DNA of 64,000 nucleotides from Melioribacteraceae bacterium. Its GTDB lineage: Bacteria; Bacteroidota; Ignavibacteria; Ignavibacteriales; Melioribacteraceae. The notes under the pieces are model-generated. The model was not told the DNA's origin and ran no database searches. It worked only from the letters and a program-made list of their open reading frames with translations. Positions within the stretch are counted from its first letter, which is position 1; each line of letters begins with the position of its first letter. This document shows, piece by piece, positions 6,865 to 20,052 of the stretch. The stretch spans positions 777,511-841,510 of the forward strand of contig CP129490.1 in assembly GCA_030584085.1 (NCBI GenBank), in the 5' to 3' direction. Made by a program: the position numbers and the translations under genes.

Positions 6865-7339
6865 AAAATTGGATTTGCAGCCGCATCCGGAAGGTGGATA
6901 TTTCAAAGAAGTTTACCGTTCCGATGAACTTATAAAAGTTGAGGGATTACCTGAACGTTATTCATCCGAAAGATGTTTTAGCACTTCAATTTATTACATG
7001 TTGGTAGGCGAACAGTTTTCCGCATTTCATAAATTACAATCGGATGAAACTTGGCATTTTTATTTAGGCTCACCGATTGTCTTACATTTAATTTCGTCGG
7101 AAGGGAATTATTCTAAAATTATTCTCGGACAGAATATTACTGAGGATGAAAATCTACAATACACAATTCCAAGAGAAACATGGTTTGCCGCGGAAGTAAA
7201 AGACAAAACTACTTATTCGCTTGTCGGATGTACAGTTTCACCCGGATTTGATTTTGCTGATTTTGAAATGGGAGATCGAAAAACACTTCTTGATAAGTTC
7301 CAGCAGCATCAAAATTTAATTAAACAATTTTCACAATAA
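6839..7339 (+). CDS. Cupin family protein (DUF985/YML079w-like)
   Basis: 166 residues from the ATG at 6839, chosen because GAGGAAAA lies immediately upstream and because homologues begin close to the LxLxPHPEGGYFKE motif. A longer in-frame start at 6758 would lie deep inside the esterase gene. Residues about 12-25 (LQPHPEGGYFKEVYRS), then STSIYYML, FHKLQSDETWHFYLG and WFAAEV are the conserved blocks of the cupin_5 fold. The His/Glu residues could bind a metal or sugar nucleotide, but the family's reaction is not established. The 26-base overlap with the esterase gene suggests translational coupling. Confidence 0.88.
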   Translation: MIPASTLVEKLDLQPHPEGGYFKEVYRSDELIKVEGLPERYSSERCFSTSIYYMLVGEQFSAFHKLQSDETWHFYLGSPIVLHLISSEGNYSKIILGQNITEDENLQYTIPRETWFAAEVKDKTTYSLVGCTVSPGFDFADFEMGDRKTLLDKFQQHQNLIKQFSQ

Positions 7340-7615
7340 TTATTTCGTGAGTTTTAGTCCTCGGATAGTTGTTATAAAAGATATTTGAGCTTCTAATCCT
7401 TTTTAATAATATACTCTTGTCTTGATTTATTTTATTCATTGAGCTAGTTTTCTAATACAATCAATTCCTTGCTAGAGACATTTTGATATAATCTATATTC
7501 AAATTTCTCTCCTCCTTTACAGCGCTTCTCCCAAGGACATATAATCATTTTTCAGGTTTGTTTAATCACCTTAAGTGTTTTTTTAAATAGTTCATCTAAA
7601 TTCCTTGGAGGTACC

Positions 7616-8236
7616 GTGCTTAAAAAAATTACACTATCAATTTGTTTAGTTCTTTTAGTAGTTATTTCAACGAGTGCTCAAAACTCAGGAAAGCATGAAC
7701 ATGATGGATTTTTTATGAGAATTTTGGTAGGTCCATCATACACAACTCAAGTTTATGATGGTGCCCCTTCAGAGATGGAAGTAAAGGGAGTTTCTGCATC
7801 TTTCGGTTTTCAAATTGGAGCTACAATTGCTGAGAATTTAATTGCTTTCGGCGAAGTAAGCGGGTCAACAATCACAAATCCGGATATTGAAATTAACGGT
7901 ACAGTTCACGAAACCGATGAAACTAAATCTTCAAGTTTCGGTTTCGGAGGTGGTATGACATATTATATCATGCCGCTAAATTTTTACTTTACCGCATCTG
8001 TGTTAGCTTCCAAAATGAAAATGGAGTACACAAAAGGTTCGGTTAAATATGAAGGTGAATCCGATATGGGAATTGGTGTTTTTGCCGGTGTAGGGAAAGA
8101 ATGGTGGATTGCTGATGATTGGGCTTTGGGAGCTTGTGCATTTTTCTCTTACGCTAATGTCCCGGATAAAGGTAGTTCCGATATTACTATTGCTTGCACA
8201 ACTTTTGGAATTGCTTTTTCAGCTACCTTCCAATAG
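7616..8236 (+). CDS. Outer membrane beta-barrel protein
   Basis: 206 residues starting at a GTG preceded by GGAGG. A cleavable signal peptide (hydrophobic core LSICLVLLVVIS, cleavage near SAQ, residues 20-22) leads into alternating beta-strand sequence rich in Gly and aromatics. The last residue is preceded by an aromatic strand (IAFSATFQ), consistent with a small 8-strand OmpA/OprF-type or outer-membrane-protein-beta-barrel fold. It stands alone after a 276-base spacer in which I see no gene. Function unknown. Confidence 0.75.
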   Translation: MLKKITLSICLVLLVVISTSAQNSGKHEHDGFFMRILVGPSYTTQVYDGAPSEMEVKGVSASFGFQIGATIAENLIAFGEVSGSTITNPDIEINGTVHETDETKSSSFGFGGGMTYYIMPLNFYFTASVLASKMKMEYTKGSVKYEGESDMGIGVFAGVGKEWWIADDWALGACAFFSYANVPDKGSSDITIACTTFGIAFSATFQ

Positions 8237-8256
8237 TTAACAAATTATCTATTCGA

Positions 8257-8313
8257 AAATGTAGTGAACGCAAATTTTGCGTTCACTACATAAATAATTT
8301 TTACAAATTAAAG
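8257..8313. repeat. Direct repeat copy 1, containing a 14-bp-arm palindrome
   Basis: 57 bases matching 9030-9086 at 55 positions, exactly 773 bases apart. It contains the palindrome at 8261-8289 (arms GTAGTGAACGCAAA and TTTGCGTTCACTAC, one central base). Its right end duplicates, in reverse orientation, the last codons and the stop of glnA. It flanks the toxin-antitoxin pair on the left. Confidence 0.9.
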
Positions 8314-8324
8314 AGAAAATCCAA

Positions 8325-8372
8325 TTGCTAATAAAAATAACTTGACGTATATTAATTACAAAATGTACGTCA
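8325..8372 (+). promoter_or_regulatory. Promoter and likely autoregulatory operator of the TA pair
   Basis: A candidate -35 TTGCTA (8325-8330) and -10 TATATT (8348-8353) are separated by 17 bases. The inverted repeat TGACGTA (8343-8349) and TACGTCA (8366-8372), 16 bases apart, overlaps the -10 and the expected transcription start. That is where an antitoxin would bind to repress its own operon. Operator role is inferred from position and symmetry. Confidence 0.55.
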
Positions 8373-8387
8373 GATTTAGGGAAATCT

Positions 8388-8630
8388 ATGCAAACAAAAT
8401 TAACTTTAAGAATAGACGAAAAAGTAATCGAAAAGGCTAAAAGAATTTCTCGTAAACGAGGAAAGTCCATTTCAAAAATGGTTTCGGATTTTATACAAAA
8501 TGAAGATCGCAAGGAGAATGAATCCGTAGAAGTTTATCCGCCAATAACCAAGAAATTAAAAGGACTAATTAAAGAGAAAGAATTTAAGAAGGATGATTAC
8601 TACAACTATCTTGAAGAAAAACATAAATGA
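8388..8630 (+). CDS. Antitoxin, DUF6364-like
   Basis: 80 residues. The N-terminal LTLRIDEKVIEKAK strand-helix followed by KRGKSISKMVSDFI is the ribbon-helix-helix-like pattern of DUF6364 antitoxins. The C-terminal half (PPITKKLKGLI, then DDYYNYLEEK) is the usual toxin-binding tail. It overlaps the PIN toxin gene by 4 bases (ATGA), typical of VapBC-like modules. An AGGGAAA motif precedes the ATG, and an inverted repeat lies upstream, consistent with autorepression. Confidence 0.88.
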   Translation: MQTKLTLRIDEKVIEKAKRISRKRGKSISKMVSDFIQNEDRKENESVEVYPPITKKLKGLIKEKEFKKDDYYNYLEEKHK

Positions 8631-9031
8631 GAATATTACTTGATACAAATATTGTTCTCGATCTGCTGCTTGATAGATATCCTCATGCAGAAAATGCTGC
8701 ACAATTATTTACACTTATCGAAAAAAAGAAGTATTCTGGATTCTTATGTGCTACTTCTATTACTACGATTAATTATTTTCTTCAAAAGTCTTTGGGTAAA
8801 AATAAAAGTCGAGAAATTATTAATGACGTATTGAATCTTTTTGGAATTGCCGAGGTCAATAAAAAAGTTTTGCAATCAGCTCAAAAATCTAAATTTAATG
8901 ATTTTGAAGATGCAGTAATTTACGAGGCAGCACTAGCAAGCAAAGTTGATGCAATTATTACAAGAAATACAAAGGATTTTTCACGCGCGAAAATAAATGT
9001 TTATTCACCAAAAGAATTTTTAGATGAGTAA
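8627..9031 (+). CDS. PIN-domain toxin (VapC-like ribonuclease)
   Basis: 134 residues, a normal length for PIN toxins. The fold begins with MRILLDTNIVLDLLL (D6 as first metal ligand, TN pair). The central acidic segment NDFEDAVIYEAAL (D92, D95) and the final ITRNTKDF (N114, D117) give the remaining conserved metal-site and substrate positions. PIN toxins cleave RNA with Mg2+; the target is not predictable. Translation is coupled to the antitoxin. The stop codon touches the second direct repeat. The pair sits alone between two copies of the glnA 3' region, so it is probably a recent insertion. Confidence 0.9.
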   Translation: MRILLDTNIVLDLLLDRYPHAENAAQLFTLIEKKKYSGFLCATSITTINYFLQKSLGKNKSREIINDVLNLFGIAEVNKKVLQSAQKSKFNDFEDAVIYEAALASKVDAIITRNTKDFSRAKINVYSPKEFLDE

Positions 9032-9086
9032 ACGTAGTGAACGCAAAGTTTGCGTTCACTACATAAATAATTTTTACAAATTAAAG
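9030..9086. repeat. Direct repeat copy 2, overlapping toxin stop and glnA 3' end
   Basis: 57 bases, 55 identical to 8257-8313. It contains the palindrome GTAGTGAACGCAAA-G-TTTGCGTTCACTAC (9034-9062). Its right end includes the last glnA codons and stop (9074-9086). Its left end overlaps the toxin TAA. The palindrome lies where a glnA terminator would be, but it lacks a strong U-tract. Confidence 0.9.
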
Positions 9087-10456
9087 TACATCTTATATTC
9101 GAACGGATGAGGCATCGTTCCGATTGCCTTTACTTCTTCATTCTTAATCTTAAACCACTGATCAAGTAACTCGTCCGTAAAGATATTTCCCCTCTTTAAA
9201 AATTCATTGTCAGCTTTAAGTGCTTCAAGCGCTTCGGTTAAGTTGCGAGGTAAGAAATGAATTTTGTCGATGTGTTCATCATTCAAGAAATTTTTGTCAT
9301 AAGGTCCGAATCCTTCCTTAACCGGATCAATTTTATTTACAACCCCATCAATTCCCGCAAGTAAAATTGATGATAAACATAAGTATGGATTTGCAGTTGC
9401 ATCGGAAGGTCGATATTCAAAACGAGTTTCATCCGGATTCGAAACATATTTTGGAATTCTGATTGCACTTGCTCTATTGCCTTGTCCGTATGTTAGCGCA
9501 ACCGGAGCTTCAAATCCCGGTACTAATCTCTTATATGAATTTGTGCTTGGATTTGTGAATGCAGTTAATGCCGGTCCATGTTTCAAAATACCGCCGATAA
9601 AATACAAACCGAGTTCGCTCATATTTCCATAAGCGCCTTTTTTATAGAAAAGATTTTTACCGTTCTTTGTTAAATATAGATGAACGTGCATTCCGTTTCC
9701 GGCTTGATGATACATTGGTTTAGGCATGAAGGTTACAAATAAATCACGCGATCTTGCAAAATTGAACAACGCGTATTTTGAAGTAACTATATTATCGGCT
9801 GTATCTAGTAATGTTGAAAAATATGTCTCAATTTCTTGCTGACCTCTTTCACCGACTTCATGATGATGATACTTAACATCTATTCCAAAGTTTTTTAAAA
9901 TTTTACATGCTTCATCTCTAAAGTCATCGTAAATATCAAAAGGATTTGCAGCGTGATAAGCTTTACCGTGAAATTCTTCTTCATGCTCGACTTTGTAATA
10001 TGATGTTGCTGTTCTTGTATCATACTCAACGTTTGAAAAAATATAAAATTCAAATTCCGGTCCCCACCATGATTGATCGGCGCCGGTTGTTTTCTTTAAT
10101 AATTGTTCTGCTTGTTTTGCAATGTGTCTGCCATCTTGTGAAAAAGGTGAACGCTTTTCATCGGTTAAAACTATGTGGGAATAAAAGCTCATTGTCGGTG
10201 CTTCTCTGAAAGGATCAACAACTGCTGTATCAAGATCGGGAATTAAAATCATATCACTGTTTTCAACTTTCCTAAATCCATAACTTGATCCGTCAAATCC
10301 AACACCTTCTCCCATTAATCTTTCCATAATATCATCCCGAACTGGTAAAGAGATGTGATGAAGTCTTCCTGCTAAATCGATCGCTTTTAAATCGATAACT
10401 TCAATTTTCTTTTTCTTTAATTCACTTTTAATTGATTCGATAGTTCTTTTAGCCAT
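9074..10456 (-). CDS. glnA: Glutamine synthetase type I (alpha-like)
   Basis: 460 residues. It condenses glutamate and ammonia with ATP to glutamine in the cytoplasm. GFDGSSYGF (54-62), the metal and glutamate site GPEFEFYIF (132-140), HHEVGERGQQEIE (198-210), the His site NGMHVHLYL (254-262) and NRASAIRIP (327-335) are all present. R62 matches the arginine used for feedback inhibition in GSI-alpha enzymes. The region where GSI-beta enzymes carry the adenylylated tyrosine (NLYDLPPEE) reads DKNFLNDEHID (388-398), with no tyrosine. GAGGAAGG precedes the ATG. It lies downstream of eno on the same strand, but a terminator hairpin separates them. The 3' end lies in a duplicated repeat. Confidence 0.96.
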   Translation of the reverse strand: MAKRTIESIKSELKKKKIEVIDLKAIDLAGRLHHISLPVRDDIMERLMGEGVGFDGSSYGFRKVENSDMILIPDLDTAVVDPFREAPTMSFYSHIVLTDEKRSPFSQDGRHIAKQAEQLLKKTTGADQSWWGPEFEFYIFSNVEYDTRTATSYYKVEHEEEFHGKAYHAANPFDIYDDFRDEACKILKNFGIDVKYHHHEVGERGQQEIETYFSTLLDTADNIVTSKYALFNFARSRDLFVTFMPKPMYHQAGNGMHVHLYLTKNGKNLFYKKGAYGNMSELGLYFIGGILKHGPALTAFTNPSTNSYKRLVPGFEAPVALTYGQGNRASAIRIPKYVSNPDETRFEYRPSDATANPYLCLSSILLAGIDGVVNKIDPVKEGFGPYDKNFLNDEHIDKIHFLPRNLTEALEALKADNEFLKRGNIFTDELLDQWFKIKNEEVKAIGTMPHPFEYKMYFNL

Positions 10457-10482
10457 ACCTTCCTCAGTGTTATTTATATAGA

Positions 10483-10523
10483 CAAAAATGGGCTGTCAAG
10501 AATTTATAAATTCCGGACAGCCC
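10483..10523 (-). terminator. Terminator between eno and glnA
   Basis: On the reverse strand GGGCTGTC pairs with GACAGCCC, with an inner AT-rich palindrome (GGAATTTATAAATTC) in the loop, followed by ATTTTTG. It follows the eno stop and precedes the glnA start, so it can end eno transcription or attenuate readthrough into glnA. Confidence 0.75.
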
Positions 10524-10545
10524 CAATTGTGGGTTCTATTAATAA

Positions 10546-11850
<1,305 letters not shown>

Positions 11851-11919
11851 TTAGTTAGTTTTCATCATCGAAAATTAGAAAAAAGGACATGCAAATTCAA
11901 TTTAAAGCGGATTAAGAAA

Positions 11920-11948
11920 TTGTCACGGCGTTCACTAATTTTTATATT
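11920..11948 (+). promoter_or_regulatory. Promoter for tRNA-Arg
   Basis: TTGTCA (11920-11925) and TATATT (11943-11948) with a 17-base spacer place the start about 18 bases before the tRNA. Confidence 0.5.
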
Positions 11949-11972
11949 TCAACTTTGATTTTTGATTTAATT

Positions 11973-12045
11973 GCCCACGTAGCTCAGGGGATAGAGCGAC
12001 GGTTTCCTAAACCGCAGGTCGCAGGTTCAATTCCTGCCGTGGGTA
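11973..12045 (+). tRNA. tRNA-Arg (anticodon CCT)
   Basis: A 73-base cloverleaf: acceptor GCCCACG with CGTGGGT (first pair G-U), D arm GCTC/GAGC, anticodon loop TTCCTAA giving anticodon CCT (reads AGG), T arm GCAGG-TTCAATT-CCTGC, and discriminator A. The first anticodon-stem pair is an A-C mismatch. CCA is not encoded. Confidence 0.93.
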
Positions 12046-12088
12046 CAAGGTATGATGTCGATGCTACAAATCTATTTTAACAAACAGA

Positions 12089-12367
12089 TTAAGATTTTGC
12101 TTTAACAGTTTCTTTTGCAAGTTCATGATTAAATAATCTTTCTTCCCCGTCAACCGCGGTTTGCATAATCGGTAAGTTTCCATAAGCATTATCTTTTACA
12201 ATAATTTGGCGTTTGCAGCGTTTACACTTCAGACCCCATGTAAGGGGGTTCAATTTCTCCATTTTGATACCATAATTATTGCACTCGAAATGGAATAATT
12301 CCAGTTCATCAAATTTCTTAACCGTAGATTGATGAACTTTTTTTACTGAAATTGTGAATTTTTGCAT
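12089..12367 (-). CDS. Conserved-looking small protein with a CxxC motif, function unknown
   Basis: 92 residues. An N-terminal beta-rich half (MQKFTISVKKVHQSTVKKFDE) leads to an FHFECNN Cys near residue 29 and a CKRC knuckle near residue 48, followed by a basic QIIVKDN strand. The C-terminus is Lys/Glu-rich. One Cys plus CxxC could bind zinc. GAGGCG lies 8-9 bases before the ATG and supports the start. There is no operon partner: it converges on the tRNA and diverges from the HEAT-repeat gene. Confidence 0.6.
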   Translation of the reverse strand: MQKFTISVKKVHQSTVKKFDELELFHFECNNYGIKMEKLNPLTWGLKCKRCKRQIIVKDNAYGNLPIMQTAVDGEERLFNHELAKETVKAKS

Positions 12368-12608
12368 AAAATCGCCTCTTTTCTGGATTCCATATTATCG
12401 AAAAAAACGAATAAATATTTATAAAAAAAACCATTGTAAATCGATTTGTTAATTTATGTTATAGAACGATTTCTTCAGATTATTGATGAAACTTTTTAGT
12501 ACAAACACTCGTCTTAAGTTATGAATCTGATAAAAGCAACATTACGGAGAAATAAGAGTCTAATATAAATAGGAACACAAACTTAAAGATCAATCTCTGG
12601 GGGGAGAA

Positions 12609-13040
12609 ATGAAACATAAAAAGATGTACCTTGTACTTACGGTTCTTACAGTTCTTTTAACGAGTATATATGCTGGTCCAAATGCAACACCGGCAGATGT
12701 AATTGAAGAAAATTACTTGGTTGGTGTTAGTTCAGAAAATCAAGGATTAAAAGTCAGTTCTGCTTATTTCCTTGGTGAAATCAAATCCTCAAAAGCTGTT
12801 ATTCCATTAATGAAAATTTTGCGTGAAGATGATTGTGACGGTGCTAGACTTGCTGCCGCACTCGCACTTGTTAAAATTGGTGATGCCAGAGGTGTTTTCA
12901 TGGTCAAGCGTACGGTTGATTTTAATGACTGTGAAAAAGTTCGTAGAATGGCAAAACATCTTTACTCAGCTTATTTGATTGGCGATGAGCAAACAGCGAT
13001 AAAGGATGTAGATTTTGTAATCGCAGCATTAAATAAATAA
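12609..13040 (+). CDS. Secreted HEAT-repeat protein
   Basis: 143 residues with a signal peptide (MYLVLTVLTVLLTSIYAG, cleavage near residue 22). Then come two to three alpha-alpha HEAT/PBS-lyase-type repeats: LKVSSAYFLGEIKSSKAVIPLMKIL, ARLAAALALVKIGDARGVFMV, VRRMAKHLYSAYL. This is a protein-protein interaction scaffold, probably periplasmic. A GGGGGGAG Shine-Dalgarno precedes the ATG. A terminator follows, so it is a single-gene unit. Partner unknown. Confidence 0.8.
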   Translation: MKHKKMYLVLTVLTVLLTSIYAGPNATPADVIEENYLVGVSSENQGLKVSSAYFLGEIKSSKAVIPLMKILREDDCDGARLAAALALVKIGDARGVFMVKRTVDFNDCEKVRRMAKHLYSAYLIGDEQTAIKDVDFVIAALNK

Positions 13041-13080
13041 TTACCCTATAAAACCCCTTCCATAAATTATAGGTGATAGG

Positions 13081-13110
13081 AAGTCCGCTTACCCGGCGGA
13101 CTTTTTCTTT
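13081..13110 (+). terminator. Rho-independent terminator
   Basis: AAGTCCGC and GCGGACTT form an 8-bp GC-rich stem with a 7-base loop, followed by TTTCTTT, after the HEAT-repeat gene. Confidence 0.88.
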
Positions 13111-13139
13111 AGTATCAAATCATTTCTAACTTTGGTTAT

Positions 13140-13181
13140 TGTGATTTAAATCACATATTTTTACGCCATATTTCTTACATT
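13140..13181 (+). promoter_or_regulatory. CRP/FNR-type binding site and promoter
   Basis: TGTGATTTAAATCACA (13140-13155) is a perfect 16-base palindrome of the TGTGA-N6-TCACA form bound by CRP/FNR-superfamily regulators (the HcpR type also uses TGTGA half sites). A possible -10, TACATT (13176-13181), puts the site centre near -41, the class II activator position. Which family member binds is unknown. Confidence 0.65.
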
Positions 13182-13216
13182 GTTTTCGGGCATTCATAAT
13201 TAAAGTGGGAGGCGCC

Positions 13217-13327
13217 ATGAACGGATTGTTTATTGTAGCCTTTCTGATCTTTTTAATACTTCTTCTTTCTAAACCGGCTTCTAAATTCTTCAAAGAAATA
13301 CTTACAAATCACGAACAACTTAAGTGA
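13217..13327 (+). CDS. 36-residue single-pass membrane peptide
   Basis: A short gene of 36 codons with a strong GGGAGG Shine-Dalgarno 4 bases before the ATG. Residues 3-18 are a pure hydrophobic helix (LFIVAFLIFLILLLS region), followed by a basic, amphipathic tail (KPASKFFKEIL). It has its own upstream CRP/FNR-type palindrome, its own -10-like element and its own terminator (13351), so it forms a complete single-gene unit. Small single-helix peptides like this often bind and regulate respiratory oxidases or transporters; that role here is only inference. I do not recognise the family. Confidence 0.7.
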   Translation: MNGLFIVAFLIFLILLLSKPASKFFKEILTNHEQLK

Positions 13328-13350
13328 TTTAGTTTTAATAAACGCCAATT

Positions 13351-13386
13351 AAGACCCAAAAACGCAACAATTTGGGTCTTTCTTCA
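13351..13386 (+). terminator. Terminator of the small membrane-peptide gene
   Basis: AAGACCCAAA and TTTGGGTCTT pair perfectly over 10 bp around a 10-base loop, followed by TCTTCATTTT. Confidence 0.85.
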
Positions 13387-13537
13387 TTTTATGTTATCTT
13401 TAAAAACAAATTTTGATGTAAATCTTCAGAAGTAGAAGCTCCTTTTAAATCTCGTCCTCAATGCTAATTATAATACATGATTGGTTTCCAGAGTTTTGGA
13501 GGAGGGATTATTTTGTTCAAAAAATTAAGGTTAAAAA

Positions 13538-13981
13538 ATGTTAGAAATTAAAAAACTGGTTAACGAATCCGATTTTGATGGAAGTTTAACTCGAGAGAAA
13601 TTTGTAGATTTTCTTTACCATCACTTAGATCAATTTGGTGATTCTAAAGATGCTATTAATAAATGTATTGATTTCGCATTTGGTAAGGACGGTAAACTCG
13701 GTGGATTTCTGCTCGCTGCTTATTATGAAAATAAATTAGTCGGAACTCTTATAATCAATAACACCGGAATGTCAGGCTATATTCCCGAACATATTTTAGT
13801 ATATATTGCAGTTGATGCTTCTTACCGAGGAAAAGGATTTGGAAAACAAATTGTTGAAAAAGCAATTTTAGATTGCCCGGGTGATGTAAAACTTCATGTT
13901 GAATATGAAAATCCCGCGAAAAGATTGTATGAAAGAATAGGCTTTACTACAAAGTATGCCGAAATGCGATTCAAAAAATAG
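13538..13981 (+). CDS. GNAT-family N-acetyltransferase
   Basis: 147 residues. The acetyl-CoA-binding motif A, YIAVDASYRGKGFGKQIV (about residues 88-105, RxxGxG type), is followed by the ENPAKRLYERIGF motif B end typical of GNATs. The family transfers acetyl groups from acetyl-CoA to amines; the substrate is unknown. It is the first gene of a five-gene operon, 9 bases before an Orr-type racemase, so acetylation of a free amino acid is a reasonable guess. The start is supported by AAGG about 8 bases upstream. Confidence 0.88.
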   Translation: MLEIKKLVNESDFDGSLTREKFVDFLYHHLDQFGDSKDAINKCIDFAFGKDGKLGGFLLAAYYENKLVGTLIINNTGMSGYIPEHILVYIAVDASYRGKGFGKQIVEKAILDCPGDVKLHVEYENPAKRLYERIGFTTKYAEMRFKK

Positions 13982-13990
13982 GATAACAAA

Positions 13991-15070
13991 ATGGCAACAC
14001 TACACATTCACTCCGACCGCATTATAGGCAACATTAAAAAACTCAATAAATTCCTTAAATCAAGAGGAATCGAGTGGACACTCGTAACTAAAATATTGAA
14101 CGGTTATAAACCTATTCTTGAAAAAATTCTTTCTGATCCGGCAATAAAGCAAGTTCACTCGATTGGGGATTCACGAATATCAAACCTTCGTGCTATTAAA
14201 GAAATCAAACCGGACATTGTTACAATTTATATTAAACCTCCGGCAGTTAACCAAGCTAAAAATGTAGTTCAATACGCAGACATCTCGCTTAATTCATCTT
14301 TTGAAACAATTAAGCAACTGGATATTGAGGCTAAAAAGCAAGGTAAGATCCACCGCATTATTGTAATGATTGAAATGGGTGAACTTAGAGAAGGTGTCGT
14401 TCGAGATCAGATACTTAATTTCTATGAAAAGATTTTCAAGATGAAGAATATCAATGTCATCGGAATCGGGACCAACCTCGGCTGCATGTACGGTGTTGAA
14501 CCAACTTATGATAAATTAATTCAACTTAGTTTGTATAGACAACTGATTGAAACTACTTTTAATGTAAAGTTAGAACTAGTCTCAAGCGGGAGTTCTATTA
14601 CATTGCCACTAGTAGCAATGAACAAAATTCCGAAAGGTGTTTCTCATTTCAGGATTGGTGAAGCTGCGTTTCTTGGAGTATCGCCCTATGATGGGAAAAA
14701 ATTTAAAAATCTTTCGACAAATGTTTTTACATTTTCCGCTGACATTGTTGAGCTCGAAAAAAAAGAAGTTGTTCCGGATGGAAAAATTGGCGACGCTGCA
14801 ATAGGTGAAACTGCTGATTTTAATAAATTAGAATACGATGAATCTTACCGTGCTATAGCAGACTTTGGCGAACTTGACGTTGATTATAGAAATTTAATTC
14901 CAAAAGATGATCAGTTAAATTTTGTTGGTACAACATCGGATATGACTGTTTATGATTTGGGATTGCGAAACGGAAAGTATAGAGTTGGTGATCAAGTTCA
15001 CTTTAATCCGAATTATATGGCGGTCGCAAGACTTACAAACTCAAAGTACATGACCAAAAAAGTTCTCTAA
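13991..15070 (+). CDS. PLP-dependent amino-acid racemase, Orr/COG3457 type
   Basis: 359 residues. The alanine-racemase N-terminal TIM barrel is recognisable: TLVTKILNGY with K34 as the Schiff-base lysine, SIGDSRISNL, IVMIEMGELREG (about 123-134), GIGTNLGCMYG, SSGSSITLPL and the phosphate-contact GEAAFLG. The C-terminal part is short and unlike classical Alr. This matches the family containing D-ornithine/lysine racemase and related broad racemases. It interconverts L- and D-amino acids in the cytoplasm; specificity is not readable. It lies between the acetyltransferase and a sodium symporter, with spacers of 9 and 15 bases. Confidence 0.87.
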   Translation: MATLHIHSDRIIGNIKKLNKFLKSRGIEWTLVTKILNGYKPILEKILSDPAIKQVHSIGDSRISNLRAIKEIKPDIVTIYIKPPAVNQAKNVVQYADISLNSSFETIKQLDIEAKKQGKIHRIIVMIEMGELREGVVRDQILNFYEKIFKMKNINVIGIGTNLGCMYGVEPTYDKLIQLSLYRQLIETTFNVKLELVSSGSSITLPLVAMNKIPKGVSHFRIGEAAFLGVSPYDGKKFKNLSTNVFTFSADIVELEKKEVVPDGKIGDAAIGETADFNKLEYDESYRAIADFGELDVDYRNLIPKDDQLNFVGTTSDMTVYDLGLRNGKYRVGDQVHFNPNYMAVARLTNSKYMTKKVL

Positions 15071-15085
15071 CAAAAATACTTTTTC

Positions 15086-16537
15086 ATGCATTGGATTGAC
15101 CTATCTATTTTTATTGCTTACATGATAATCGTTCTTGGTATCGGTTTTTATTTTCTGAGAAAGAATAAAAGTGCTGAAGATTATTATGTCGGCGGAAGGA
15201 AAATGGGAAGTCTTCATATCGGACTTTCAGTTGTAGCAACAGATGTTGGCGGTGGATTTTCAATCGGACTCGGCGGACTCGGTTTTGTTATGGGTCTTTC
15301 CGGTAGCTGGATGTTATTCACCGGATTAATCGGTGCATGGTTAAGTGCAATTTTTTTAATTCCAAAAGTTAGTAAGCTAGAACATTTCAAATCACTTTAT
15401 ACATTTCCGCAAATCTTCGAAAGTTTTTACAGTAAAAAAGTCGCAATAGCTGCCGGTCTGATTTCCGGCATTGGTTATATCGGGTTCACTGCATCTCAAA
15501 TTCTTGCAGGTGCAAAACTCGCTTCTGCGTCTTTCGTAAGTCTTGATATGAATACCGCACTAATTATTATGGGAACTATTGTAATTGTTTACACAGTTCT
15601 CGGTGGAATTAAAGCTGTTATTTACACCGACACTGTTCAGTGGATAATTTTGATGGCCGGATTAATTTTTATAGGTATACCTTTAGGTTATTATGCTGTA
15701 GGAGGTTATGAAGAAATTGTTTCGACTGTTAGATCAGAAATGTTAACACTTACTAATGTTAGCTGGCAAGAATTAGTTAAATGGGCTGTAACGATAATTC
15801 CAATCTGGTTTGTCGGGATGACATTATACCAGAGAATTTTTTCCTGTCCCGATGAAAAAACAGCAAAGAAAGCGTGGTATATTGCCGGAATATTTGAATA
15901 TCCATTAATGGCTTTTATGGGAGTATTGCTTGGATTATTCGCAAGAGTTGCGGCGGATCAAGGTATGTTCAACTATCTTGGTTTTGAAGCAATACAAGAT
16001 CTCGATCCCGAGATGGGATTGCCAGTTCTGCTTAGAACAATACTGCCGGTTGGCTTAATGGGGCTTATGATGTCCGCTTATTTTTCGGCAATTATGTCAA
16101 CAGCGGATAGCTGTTTGATGGCTGCGTCGGGTAATTTTGTAACGGATATACTCGATCGTTTTTTTAACATTAGCGGAAATCACAAAACATTTTTGAGAAC
16201 ATCACAAATTATGACTTTAGTATTAGGAATTTTCGCTTTACTTCTCGCTACTACTATGCAAAATGTATTGGAGTTAATGTTGTATTCTTATGCATTTATG
16301 GTTTCCGGACTATTCGTGCCGGTTATCGGCGCGTTTTATTGGGAACGAAGTAGTTCAATCGCGGCATTTTGGGCAATGTTGTTAGGTGGCGGAACAACAA
16401 TTACTCTTATTGTAATATCATCAAAACTACCTTTTAATCTAGATGCCAATATTTTCGGAATTACTACGTCGCTACTAGTATTTGTAGTTCTTTCATATAT
16501 TTTCCCATCAAAAGAATTTATTGAAAAGGAAACCTAA
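15086..16537 (+). CDS. Sodium:solute symporter (SSS family)
   Basis: 483 residues with about 13 hydrophobic segments. The N-terminal YYVGGRKMGSLHIGLSVVATDVGG (split over about residues 33-56) is the SSS signature region, and the unwound first helix and the later STADSCLMAASGNFVTDIL segment (about 341-359) supply conserved sodium-site serines and threonines. SSS carriers import amino acids, pantothenate, sugars or other solutes with Na+. Its place between two racemase/amidohydrolase genes argues for an amino acid or N-acyl amino acid as substrate. The stop is two bases before the amidohydrolase ATG. Confidence 0.92.
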   Translation: MHWIDLSIFIAYMIIVLGIGFYFLRKNKSAEDYYVGGRKMGSLHIGLSVVATDVGGGFSIGLGGLGFVMGLSGSWMLFTGLIGAWLSAIFLIPKVSKLEHFKSLYTFPQIFESFYSKKVAIAAGLISGIGYIGFTASQILAGAKLASASFVSLDMNTALIIMGTIVIVYTVLGGIKAVIYTDTVQWIILMAGLIFIGIPLGYYAVGGYEEIVSTVRSEMLTLTNVSWQELVKWAVTIIPIWFVGMTLYQRIFSCPDEKTAKKAWYIAGIFEYPLMAFMGVLLGLFARVAADQGMFNYLGFEAIQDLDPEMGLPVLLRTILPVGLMGLMMSAYFSAIMSTADSCLMAASGNFVTDILDRFFNISGNHKTFLRTSQIMTLVLGIFALLLATTMQNVLELMLYSYAFMVSGLFVPVIGAFYWERSSSIAAFWAMLLGGGTTITLIVISSKLPFNLDANIFGITTSLLVFVVLSYIFPSKEFIEKET

Positions 16538-16538
16538 A

Positions 16539-17684
16539 ATGAAATGGGAAGAAATTGAACATGAGTTAATTTTACTTAGAAGAGAACTTCACAAATATCC
16601 CGAATTATCCGGCAAAGAAAATAATACAGCTGGGAAAATTGTAAAGTTTGCGGAAAAATTTAATCCGGATGAAATTATTAAGAATATCGGCGGAAATGGT
16701 TTAGCAGTTGTATTCCAAGGTGATCATGAAGCGAAAACAATTTTAATAAGATGCGAATTAGATGCGCTTCCAATCGAAGAAGAAAATGAGTTTGATTACA
16801 AATCTCAAACCGAAGGAGTTTCGCATAAATGTGGTCATGACGGACACATGGCAATTGTCAGCGGATTGATTCCACTTTTAAGTGAAAAGAAAATTAAGAA
16901 CGGAAAAATAGTTCTTCTTTATCAACCCGCAGAAGAAACCGGAGAAGGTGCAGAAAAAATTTTAAATGACGATAAATTTAAGAATTTAAATCCCGATTAT
17001 GTTTTTGCATTACACAATTTACCGGGATTTGAAAAAAATAAAATTATTGTAAAAGAAAATGAATTCGCTTCGGCTTCAAAAGGATTGAAAATAAAATTAA
17101 TCGGCAAGACTTCACATGCAGCCGAACCGGAAAAAGGAATTACTCCTTCATTAGCTGTCGCTGAATTAATTCAAAGATTAGTAGAAATTCCGAACAAAGA
17201 AAAATTTGATGAATTTACTCTTGTTACAATAATCCATGCGAAAATTGGTGAGCGTGCTTTCGGTACAACCCCGGGATATGCTGAATTGATGGCCACTCTT
17301 CGTTCATTTAAAAATGAAAACATGGAAAAACTTCAAGCACAAGCTGAGAAAATTATTGATGAAGTAAGTGCAAAAAACAATCTAAAATTTAAACTTGAAT
17401 GGGTAGAAGAATTTCCATCGACGATCAATGATAAATTTTGCGTAGATGTTGTTCGAAAATCAGCCGAGGAAAATAATCTATCAATTGAAGAAATTAAAAA
17501 TCCATTTAGATGGTCTGAAGATTTTGGACACTTCACACAAAAGTATAATGGTGCGTTGTTTGGCTTGGGTTCCGGTGTTGATCAACCACAGCTTCATAAT
17601 CCCGATTATGATTTTCCGGATGATATAATATTAACCGGCACAAAAATGTTCTACTCAATAATTAAAAATATCGCGGAAGAATAA
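16539..17684 (+). CDS. M20-family amidohydrolase (hippurate/N-acyl-amino-acid type)
   Basis: 381 residues from the ATG at 16539; AAAAGGAAA lies about 8 bases upstream, so this start is preferred over an in-frame TTG at 16521 inside the symporter gene. RRELHKYPELSGKE (14-27), the metal-site HKCGHDGHMA (Cys and two His), QPAEETGEGA (two Glu), FALHNLPG and the final LHNPDYDFPDD are the M20D hallmarks. These enzymes remove acyl groups from N-acyl amino acids or small peptides. The alanine racemase gene begins on the very next base, so the two are likely cotranslated. Confidence 0.93.
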   Translation: MKWEEIEHELILLRRELHKYPELSGKENNTAGKIVKFAEKFNPDEIIKNIGGNGLAVVFQGDHEAKTILIRCELDALPIEEENEFDYKSQTEGVSHKCGHDGHMAIVSGLIPLLSEKKIKNGKIVLLYQPAEETGEGAEKILNDDKFKNLNPDYVFALHNLPGFEKNKIIVKENEFASASKGLKIKLIGKTSHAAEPEKGITPSLAVAELIQRLVEIPNKEKFDEFTLVTIIHAKIGERAFGTTPGYAELMATLRSFKNENMEKLQAQAEKIIDEVSAKNNLKFKLEWVEEFPSTINDKFCVDVVRKSAEENNLSIEEIKNPFRWSEDFGHFTQKYNGALFGLGSGVDQPQLHNPDYDFPDDIILTGTKMFYSIIKNIAEE

Positions 17685-18836
17685 ATGCTTCATACATCTC
17701 AAATAGAAATTAGTAAGTCGGCTTTAAAACAAAATGTAAAATTCATCAATGAATATCTGAATGAGGGTGTTAAGTTCTCTTCGGTAGTAAAAGGAAATGC
17801 TTACGGGCATACGATCGAAAAGTTTGTACCGATTGCTGAAGAAGCCGGAGTTGACCACTTTTCGGTATTCAGTGCTGAAGAAGCTGATCAAGTTCTCAAT
17901 GTTTGCGATGATTGTTCCGACATTATGATAATGGGAAACATTGATAGCGAAGACTTACAATGGGCGATTGAAAATGAAATTGAATTTTATGTCTTTGAAA
18001 TGGATAGATTGGAATCGGCATTGAGCTCTGCGAAAAAAAACAATAAGAAAGCTAGAATTCATCTCGAGGTTGAAACAGGAATGAATAGGACCGGTTTTGA
18101 TAATAGCGATTTAAGGAAAGCAATCAAACTCATTAAAGAAAATTCTGAGCAAATTTCATTTGAAGGAATGTGTACCCATTACGCCGGGGCCGAAAGTATT
18201 GCCAACTATTTACGAATCCAAAATCAGTTAAAGAAATTTAATCGAATCCGTACTGCAATTGAAAAGGAAGGTATAAGGCCAAAACGATATCACTCAGCCG
18301 GATCAGCTGCAACAATTACTTATCCAAAGACTCAAATGGATATGGTACGACTTGGAATTCTTCAATACGGTTATTGGCCTACTAGAGAAACTTATATTCA
18401 TTACATAAGCAAATACGGCGAACCTCGAGAACCATTGAAGAGAATACTTTCCTGGAAATCAAAAATTATGAATGTTAAAAAAGTTAAGACAGGTGAGTTC
18501 ATCGGTTATGGAACAACATACCTTGCTCAACATGAAATTAAAATAGCAAATGTTCCGATCGGTTATTCGCATGGCTTTTCACGCGGATTGAGTAATATCG
18601 GAAGAGTTTTAGTTAACGGACAGCGCGTGGGTGTTATCGGAATGGTGAATATGAATTTACTTACAATTGATGTAACCGGATGCTCTAATATTATGAAAGG
18701 TGATGAAGTTGTAATTATTGGAACACAAGGAGAACTCGAACTTTCGGTCGCTTCTTTTAGTGAGTTAAGTGCTCAAGTTAATTATGAAACTCTAACAAGA
18801 TTACCGGTAAGCATTCCCAGAAAAATTGTTGATTAA
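17685..18836 (+). CDS. alr: Alanine racemase-family enzyme
   Basis: 383 residues, normal Alr length, two domains. The barrel carries VVKGNAYGH with K36 as the PLP lysine, VETGMNRTGF (128-137) and SAGSAATITYP. The C-terminal domain supplies the second catalytic base Y294 in IGYSHGFSRG. The usual RVCMD segment is GMVNMN (N322, N324), so Cys and Asp at the active-site entrance are replaced by Asn. Classical Alr makes D-alanine for peptidoglycan; the operon context and the substitution allow broader specificity. It is the last gene of the five-gene operon, directly abutting the amidohydrolase. Confidence 0.92.
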   Translation: MLHTSQIEISKSALKQNVKFINEYLNEGVKFSSVVKGNAYGHTIEKFVPIAEEAGVDHFSVFSAEEADQVLNVCDDCSDIMIMGNIDSEDLQWAIENEIEFYVFEMDRLESALSSAKKNNKKARIHLEVETGMNRTGFDNSDLRKAIKLIKENSEQISFEGMCTHYAGAESIANYLRIQNQLKKFNRIRTAIEKEGIRPKRYHSAGSAATITYPKTQMDMVRLGILQYGYWPTRETYIHYISKYGEPREPLKRILSWKSKIMNVKKVKTGEFIGYGTTYLAQHEIKIANVPIGYSHGFSRGLSNIGRVLVNGQRVGVIGMVNMNLLTIDVTGCSNIMKGDEVVIIGTQGELELSVASFSELSAQVNYETLTRLPVSIPRKIVD

Positions 18837-18903
18837 TTAAACGAATTGTCGAATTATGTGAATTTACGGATTTAGCGAATTGAGTAATTCTATTTTTTAT
18901 AAT

Positions 18904-20052
18904 TTACTCAATCATCAAATCAATAAATCCTTCAATCAATTCTAGTGGTTTAAAAGAAGATTTACTTGATTGCCAGTTAGTTGTAAATACTAAAACAAGA
19001 TCAAACTTAGGAATTACAAAAATATATTGCCCGCCATATCCGGCTGCAAAATTTATAATTACACTTCTATAATTTTTTACCCACCATTGATAACCGTAAA
19101 ACTCACTATACTTTTCGCCGATACCGGCAGTTTTTATATGAGGGTATAACATTTCATTTACGTATGCTGAATCAAGAAGTTTTTTATCATACCAGAATCC
19201 TTTTTCTAAGACAAGCAAACCAATCTTTGTCATATCTCTTGAAGTTAAAAATAATTCGGAGTTTCCGAGATTATAACCGTTTCTATCTTTTGTCCATTTA
19301 TAATTTGTTATGCCTAAAGAATCGAATAAATACTTCTCGGCGAATTCATCGGTTGACATTCCGCTTTTTTCGGTAATTATACTTGAAAGCATATGAGATA
19401 AACCGGAATTATAATTAAAAACTTCGCCGGGTTCGTCTTCCATCACTGTTTGAGTAATCATATATTCATTTCGATTACCTTTGTACAAATCCCAACCTGA
19501 ACGATATTTCCCACCGAAGTTATTCCATTCAAATCCAGCGGACATTGTAAGTAAATGTTTGATTGTAATTTGTTGTTTAAGAGAATCATTTGCATTTTCA
19601 AAATAAACAGGAAAGAAATCGGAGATATTTTGATCAACACGGTTAATTAATTTTAATTCGATTGCTTTACCGACTAATAATGAGGCTATACTTTTTGTTA
19701 CGGACTTTATGCTGTGTAATTTTTCTTGGCTTCCGTTGCCGAAATATTTTTCATAAAGCAAGTATTGATCTTTGACGATAAGATAACTTGTAAAATCATT
19801 GGTTCTATTTTGATGCTCGATAAAAGAATTAATTAATGAATTTATGGCAAATGAATCGATTCCCGTTTCTTGAATTAATTTAATCTGCCAGTCATTTGCC
19901 GGATTATATTCCCAAACTATTTTTTCCTTTTGCTCCTTTTCTTCTATATGGACTTTTGGTTTCTCGTTATGGCAGGCAACGAAAATCAAAACGAGCAAAA
20001 CGCTATATAAACTAATTTTATTCATTTTATTTTGGTATTGAATTTTCTTCAT
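18904..20052 (-). CDS. Serine hydrolase lipoprotein, class C beta-lactamase fold
   Basis: 382 residues. The N-terminus has a lipoprotein signal (LLVLIFVAC lipobox, Cys near residue 27), so the protein is probably anchored in a membrane and faces the periplasm or outside. SIKSVTKSIAS holds the SxxK catalytic Ser and Lys, and NYNSGLSHML gives the YxN motif. HxG/KTG-like residues occur late (AAGYGGQYI). The family (COG1680) includes esterases, D-aminopeptidases and carboxypeptidases. It converges on the racemase operon. A second in-frame ATG nine codons in is equally possible; neither has a clear Shine-Dalgarno. Confidence 0.88.
   Translation of the reverse strand: MKKIQYQNKMNKISLYSVLLVLIFVACHNEKPKVHIEEKEQKEKIVWEYNPANDWQIKLIQETGIDSFAINSLINSFIEHQNRTNDFTSYLIVKDQYLLYEKYFGNGSQEKLHSIKSVTKSIASLLVGKAIELKLINRVDQNISDFFPVYFENANDSLKQQITIKHLLTMSAGFEWNNFGGKYRSGWDLYKGNRNEYMITQTVMEDEPGEVFNYNSGLSHMLSSIITEKSGMSTDEFAEKYLFDSLGITNYKWTKDRNGYNLGNSELFLTSRDMTKIGLLVLEKGFWYDKKLLDSAYVNEMLYPHIKTAGIGEKYSEFYGYQWWVKNYRSVIINFAAGYGGQYIFVIPKFDLVLVFTTNWQSSKSSFKPLELIEGFIDLMIE

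Follow-up and report, generated by a model that had tools for sequence, protein, structure and literature searches.

CRP-dependent promoters of class II carry a TGTGA-N6-TCACA operator centred near -41. The CRP of E. coli binds TGTGA through a recognition helix that reads RETVGR, and the preference of FNR is TTGAT. Small single-helix subunits of oxidases and transporters also exist. AzuCR of E. coli and VcdRP of V. cholerae are small single-gene transcripts under CRP control that encode small proteins, AzuC and VcdP, the latter with 29 residues; both are repressed by CRP and act by base-pairing, and CyaR is a regulatory RNA that CRP activates (PMC8672173). In TisB/IstR-1 and TimP/TimR, a small membrane peptide has its ribosome site sequestered by mRNA structure, and TisB is induced by stress (PMC7708055 and PMC11228461). 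Small size, a hydrophobic helix, a lysine-bearing tail and a locked ribosome site are features reported for type I toxins (PMC8309996, PMC7708055, PMC11228461).

We describe herein a locus that resembles each of these systems in part. It lies in a window (the whole stretch of DNA analyzed) of 64,000 nucleotides from a Melioribacteraceae bacterium, and was compared between the window's own genome (G000; 3.74 Mb, single contig) and two genomes of the same genus (G001 and G002). The best reading is a full single-gene transcription unit, with a predicted mRNA of ~190 nucleotides, for a genus-specific inner-membrane peptide of 33 to 36 residues (Table 1). As in class II promoters, the operator appears to be centred near -41, with the regulator and its ligand being predicted. 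The likeness to AzuCR and VcdRP, drawn by description and not by sequence comparison, lies in a small single-gene transcript that encodes a small protein and appears to be under CRP-type control; the promoter of the small gene, however, looks activated, and its peptide looks like an integral-membrane helix. The likeness to TisB/IstR-1 and TimP/TimR lies in a small membrane peptide with a predicted sequestered ribosome site, but no antitoxin RNA was detected in the cis stretch scanned, and control appears to be CRP-type and not by DNA damage. Among the literature matches listed for small proteins in Ignavibacteria or Melioribacter, nothing relevant was found, and a gene this short is normally skipped by annotation.

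Table 1. Features of the small-gene locus, in positions of the window
Feature	Position	Strand	Basis or remark
Terminator-like hairpin of upstream HEAT-repeat gene	13078..13106	+	Hairpin scan, alignment; sets the small gene apart
CRP-type operator TGTGATTTAAATCACA	13140..13155	none	Conserved form TTGTG-N8-CACAT at 13139-13156
-10-like TACATT	13176..13181	+	Putative position, from sequence
Shine-Dalgarno GGAGG	13208..13212	+	4 bases ahead of ATG at 13217
mRNA hairpin pairing Shine-Dalgarno and AUG with codons 4-9	13207..13244	+	Predicted fold
Small gene, 36 codons, peptide MNGLFIVAFLIFLILLLSKPASKFFKEILTNHEQLK	13217..13327	+	Coding signature, codon comparison
Hairpin over stop codon (AAATCAC/GTGATTT)	13306..13330	+	Predicted fold
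Terminator-like stem AAGACCCAAA/TTTGGGTCTT, 10-base loop	13351..13380 (13351-13360/13371-13380)	+	Predicted fold

The palindrome, the TACATT, the GGAGG and the 36-codon frame were all found where the original prediction had placed them, and its reading was upheld in that a small single-pass membrane peptide has a gene to itself, with a CRP/FNR-family site that is conserved and suitably placed for activation. Its terminator fared less well: the stem is present, but the T-tract behind it is interrupted, and a terminator there is plausible and not clear-cut. All 10 pairs of this stem are possible in G002, and one of the 10 is broken in G001. The stem is missing from our hairpin scan, which admits loops of 3 to 8 bases, probably because its loop of 10 exceeds that limit.

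The pattern of codon change indicates that the 36-codon frame is almost certainly a real gene. Both relatives encode MNGLFIVAFLILIILLLSRPASKILKEILTNHE at the same gene position, ending after residue 33, and the window form is three residues longer. Over the 33 codons compared in three genome pairs, G001 and G002 differ by nine synonymous and no amino-acid-changing codons, and the window differs from either relative by 10 synonymously changed and five amino-acid-changed codons, with base differences falling mostly at third codon positions. When the same base changes were relocated at random 5000 times for each of the three pairs, no relocation left as few amino-acid-changed codons as the genomes show. 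Among the other five frames, four are interrupted by stops in one or more of the genomes. The remaining one (minus strand, from 13326) stays open over the greater part of the gene in each genome; G001 and G002 differ in it at four residues and in the sense frame at none. Such a comparison with close relatives had been proposed with the original prediction, and both the frame and the palindrome were found to be retained.

Convincing homologues were confined, among 58 genomes searched, to the window's genome and the two same-genus genomes (E 3e-18, 4e-14 and 1e-13), the next-best match having an E of 0.03. A profile search of 395 genomes of the phylum gave 20 with E <= 0.05, two of which belong to the genus; the other 18 (best E from 4e-4 to 0.05) matched through short hydrophobic stretches and were taken as chance for a search of that size. 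A scan of genome contigs recovered only the two relatives already known, and no relative was found in the viral contigs, plasmids and phages searched. By these searches, the peptide looks confined to the genus.

The palindrome by itself is weak evidence, since genome-wide motif counts are near those of the controls, and it is conservation that carries the argument. The exact 16-mer TGTGATTTAAATCACA has one copy in the 3.74-Mb genome (control 0), and with two mismatches allowed there are five sites genome-wide versus four in the control. TGTGA-N6-TCACA with at most one mismatch occurs 79 times in G000 versus 51 in the control, and 45 versus 37 and 57 versus 50 times in the two relatives; the exact form is contained in two of 300 random 400-base stretches of the window. 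The exact 16-mer was also met in three other genomes of the family (L025-L027), where it adjoins other genes with no similar peptide, and these were set aside. When the three genomes are aligned (TTGTGATTTAAATCACAT, TTGTGTTTTCTATCACAT and TTGTGCTTTCTATCACAT), TTGTG-N8-CACAT is retained in all of them, and the site is identical to the window at 15 of 18 positions in each relative, the relatives' palindromes being one base short of TGTGA-N6-TCACA. Outside the site the promoter has drifted to about 50% identity with the window (upstream flank, 15/32 in G001 and 17/32 in G002; downstream flank, 27/55 and 24/54, respectively). No alignment gap separates the site from the -10 region, and both relatives have an A/T-rich, TTAAAT-like stretch at the position of TACATT in gap-free register. 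A putative transcription start at ~13188 would put the operator centre at about -41, the class II position; a promoter scan listed no sigma-70-type promoter at the small gene. GGAGGCG is unchanged across all three genomes. As far as three genomes only can tell, the joint conservation of site and frame appears to be in excess of chance.

Two further exact intergenic sites of G000 were checked for conservation. The first, TTGTGATTAAGATCACAA, is kept as TTGTGATACATATCACAA upstream of orthologous genes in G002, the only relative available for comparison, as the contig of G001 ends before this locus. The conserved form, TTGTG-N8-CACAA (L085 1500-1517 in G000, L082 1500-1517 in G002), is flanked on one side by a gene identified by eye as glycosyltransferase-like and on the other by a divergent gene that encodes a protein of ~100 residues and starts ~100 bases from the site. 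The regulator of the small gene probably acts here too, and the presence of a second conserved site suggests that the genus has a CRP-type regulon. For the other (L088), G002 has no counterpart, and the associated gene could not be found in G001. The remaining exact site of G000 is inside a response-regulator-like gene. Beyond the window, six one-mismatch CRP-like motifs, four of them TATGACANNNTTCACA, occur within 4 kb (G000:C1:2099607-2103404); they may together form a repeat array and not be operators. A further one-mismatch CRP-like site (L091 ~1501; G000:C1:135149) precedes by ~60 bases a gene that, named by eye from its sequence, is molybdopterin oxidoreductase-like with a twin-arginine signal.

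The Crp HTH family had five matches in G000, four in G001 and three in G002, nine of the 12 being above the curated cut-off. Only one Crp/Fnr protein common to all three genomes was found (L096, L095 and L097; 227 residues, 90-99% identical). Its recognition helix, GTSRETISRTL, contains a CRP-like RETISR. By sequence the protein is a relative of CRP/FNR-family members with solved structures, among them the cAMP-dependent Vfr and CAP. Another Crp/Fnr protein (L101/L102, 86% identical) is present in G001 and G002 only, and the remaining matches have no close counterpart within the three-genome set. At least two more proteins of G000, L098 and L100, are clearly of the Crp/Fnr family, and either could bind the operator in place of L096. 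A class III cyclase domain is encoded in all three genomes. The 300 bases upstream of the regulator gene contain no match to the site patterns used in any of the three. Control of the small gene by a member of the CRP/FNR family is likely, and this control is probably CRP-type rather than FNR-type, with ligand and binding predicted; the CRP type is favored because of the helix of the shared regulator, its relation to Vfr and CAP, and the cyclase in each genome. The site that had been called CRP/FNR-type is real and conserved, but its FNR side became less likely, and the same helix and cyclase leave the suggested oxygen or nitrosative control unsupported.

The Shine-Dalgarno sequence had been called strong. 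It is present, but in all three genomes it is predicted to be locked in a hairpin, with the Shine-Dalgarno and AUG together unpaired at 37 C with model values of 0.012, 0.010 and 0.008, i.e., ~1% of the time. Within 13208-13243 every pair of the window is possible in both relatives, one of them through a C-G to U-G change, and the outermost pair (13207/13244) is absent in both. Only 3.7, 2.4 and 2.0% of 1000 synonymous recodings per genome were equally closed; by folding energy alone, 13, 6 and 7% were as stable. Accessibility of the Shine-Dalgarno and AUG is the lowest of 19 window genes tested, the 18 others with a ribosome site having a lowest value of 0.16 and a median of 0.45. Third codon positions varied at none of five sites in the stem versus 16 of 27 elsewhere (Fisher one-sided p 0.02), and these hairpin statistics are modest, as they come from three related species in which conservation is partly forced by the genetic code. 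Stability of the whole transcript is ordinary (z -1.7; 10 of 200 shuffles as stable), and Rfam at the gathering threshold gave only tRNA over 7000-20000. An RNA thermometer acting by simple melting was considered and is disfavored, as the model at 65 C keeps the Shine-Dalgarno and AUG 86-92% paired. On balance, the fold predictions incline us to regard the hairpin as a working translation gate.

An AlphaFold model of the peptide (mean pLDDT 83) has helices at residues 2-17 and 19-35, the first hydrophobic throughout and the second a charged, amphipathic tail (hydrophobic moment ~0.5); this hydrophilic tail is almost perfectly conserved. With E values up to 1 allowed, Pfam gave nothing for the 36-residue form, and neither form matched an NCBIfam or PHROG family. 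The 33-residue form matched Pfam Hol_Tox (PF16935) with an E of 0.038 and 14.3 bits, below the cut-off of 23.3, and neither form can be assigned to that family. The peptide did not match a Pfam or NCBIfam model of CydX, CcoQ, CcoS or KdpF, models that these libraries presumably include. A Foldseek search of the PDB with the two-helix model found no match, which is uninformative at such a size.

Taken together, these features suggest a genus-specific, monocistronic membrane peptide that would be activated by a CRP-type protein, gated by a hairpin and directed at a membrane partner, a scheme to which we give slightly less than even credence as a whole. The activator with the RETISR helix, probably responsive to a cyclic nucleotide, would bind TGTGA-N6-TCACA near -41 and recruit RNA polymerase to a promoter that is seemingly weak alone, as judged from site, spacing and regulator. 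The resulting mRNA of ~190 nucleotides is predicted, in a form kept in three genomes, to begin with its Shine-Dalgarno and AUG locked, so that little translation would take place until the hairpin was opened, whether by an RNA or protein acting in trans, by processing or by an alternative RNA conformation. The product is predicted to insert as a single helix, probably N-out/C-in, with the lysine-bearing amphipathic tail inside. In the last and weakest step, tail and helix may bind a membrane partner, in the manner of other regulatory small proteins, and adjust it while the CRP-type signal is on. The peptide might then be a modulator of a membrane partner or a TisB/TimP-like membrane peptide; that it is a partner modulator, rather than a toxin or a small RNA, is a tentative preference. 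It is doubtful that the two controls form an AND gate, in which the peptide would be made only if a CRP-type carbon/energy signal and a second, hairpin-opening signal were both present; if they do, the locus would parallel the SOS-controlled TisB with a link to cAMP instead, and would be a lineage-specific invention of Ignavibacteria. A site, a frame and a predicted translation-blocking structure kept together in three genomes make the gene a concrete small-protein candidate in Ignavibacteria.

The strongest rival is a type-I-toxin-like peptide, stress-induced and depolarizing or growth-slowing, whose mRNA would be silenced by the hairpin over the ribosome site and whose activator would be CRP-type in place of LexA. 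It ranks first because locked ribosome sites have been described for type I toxins, and the size, the single predicted hydrophobic membrane helix, the lysine-bearing tail and the predicted sequestration of the ribosome site in the mRNA all match such toxins; the narrow distribution is compatible, and the sub-threshold Hol_Tox match of the 33-residue form points the same way. Nevertheless, we consider a toxin unlikely. Over the aligned stretch, an exact TANNTTTG on the minus strand is absent from the window and G001 and occurs twice in G002, and no minus-strand promoter-like motif common to the three genomes was seen. Relatives on plasmids, phages or viral contigs were not found, the window's own form lacks any Pfam match, and near-perfect conservation of the hydrophilic tail suits a binding surface at least equally.

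A small regulatory RNA of the AzuCR or VcdRP kind, under CRP-type control and also bearing a short frame, would suit the length of the predicted transcript and the retention of its 3' hairpin and terminator stem (the stop-codon hairpin has seven of seven pairs possible in all three genomes, one being G-U in G002), and CRP-controlled dual-function RNAs are known (PMC8672173). Such an RNA is rather improbable in our estimation. Between the stop codon and the terminator stem, the relatives match the window at 13/25 and 14/25 positions, and no conserved pairing segment was seen in this drifted stretch. The dual-function RNAs given as examples in PMC8672173 are CRP-repressed, whereas the spacing here suggests activation.

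The original prediction had likened the peptide to small proteins that tune respiratory oxidases or transporters under oxygen or nitrosative stress. On that view it would be an accessory subunit of such a complex, like CydX or KdpF, under FNR-type control by oxygen. The site is indeed of a type used by the CRP/FNR superfamily, and subunits of such a size have precedents, but the idea of a respiratory oxidase found no backing in a 36-residue peptide without any Pfam or NCBIfam family match. In addition, the helix of the shared regulator is CRP-like and not FNR-like, and no oxidase gene is present among the neighbor genes scanned. A symporter gene (15086-16537) does sit nearby, behind a GNAT-racemase gene pair, but six other genomes of the family keep this pair with no detected peptide. 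An accessory subunit is thus quite improbable. That both the ORF and the palindrome ahead of it arose by chance, as the near-control motif counts would allow, is scarcely credible against the synonymous pattern and the start, site and ribosome site conserved across three genomes, and had already been contradicted by the codon comparison (0/5000 relocations in three pairs).

The surroundings of the gene were also surveyed. The GNAT gene is present in nine of 39 genomes; in the stretches fetched from six family genomes outside the genus that have it (L109-L114), there is no relative of the peptide, and the few small hydrophobic ORFs are unlike it. No partner gene co-travelling with the peptide was seen in these stretches around the GNAT gene. 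In the surroundings of HEAT-gene relatives (L031-L057, best matches only), no ATG-started small hydrophobic ORF was found that combines a ribosome site with a TGTG-N8-CACA-like site.

Several minor observations concern the neighboring genes. At 13538-18836, genes for a GNAT protein, a racemase-like protein, a sodium:solute symporter, an M20 peptidase and an alanine racemase follow in succession. Since the GNAT and racemase-like genes are adjacent in six further genomes of the family, this row suggests an operon for amino-acid racemization and uptake. Ahead of it, at 13498-13551, a strong GGAGGAGGG is followed by a TTG-started frame of 12 codons, LFKKLRLKNVRN, that overlaps the GNAT start; the frame is open in all three genomes, the leader is 60/69 and 62/69 identical, and the product is possibly a coupling leader peptide. 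At 8388-9031, a DUF6364 gene with weak ribbon-helix-helix and VapB matches is followed by a PIN_3-domain gene, and the pair looks like a type II toxin-antitoxin system.
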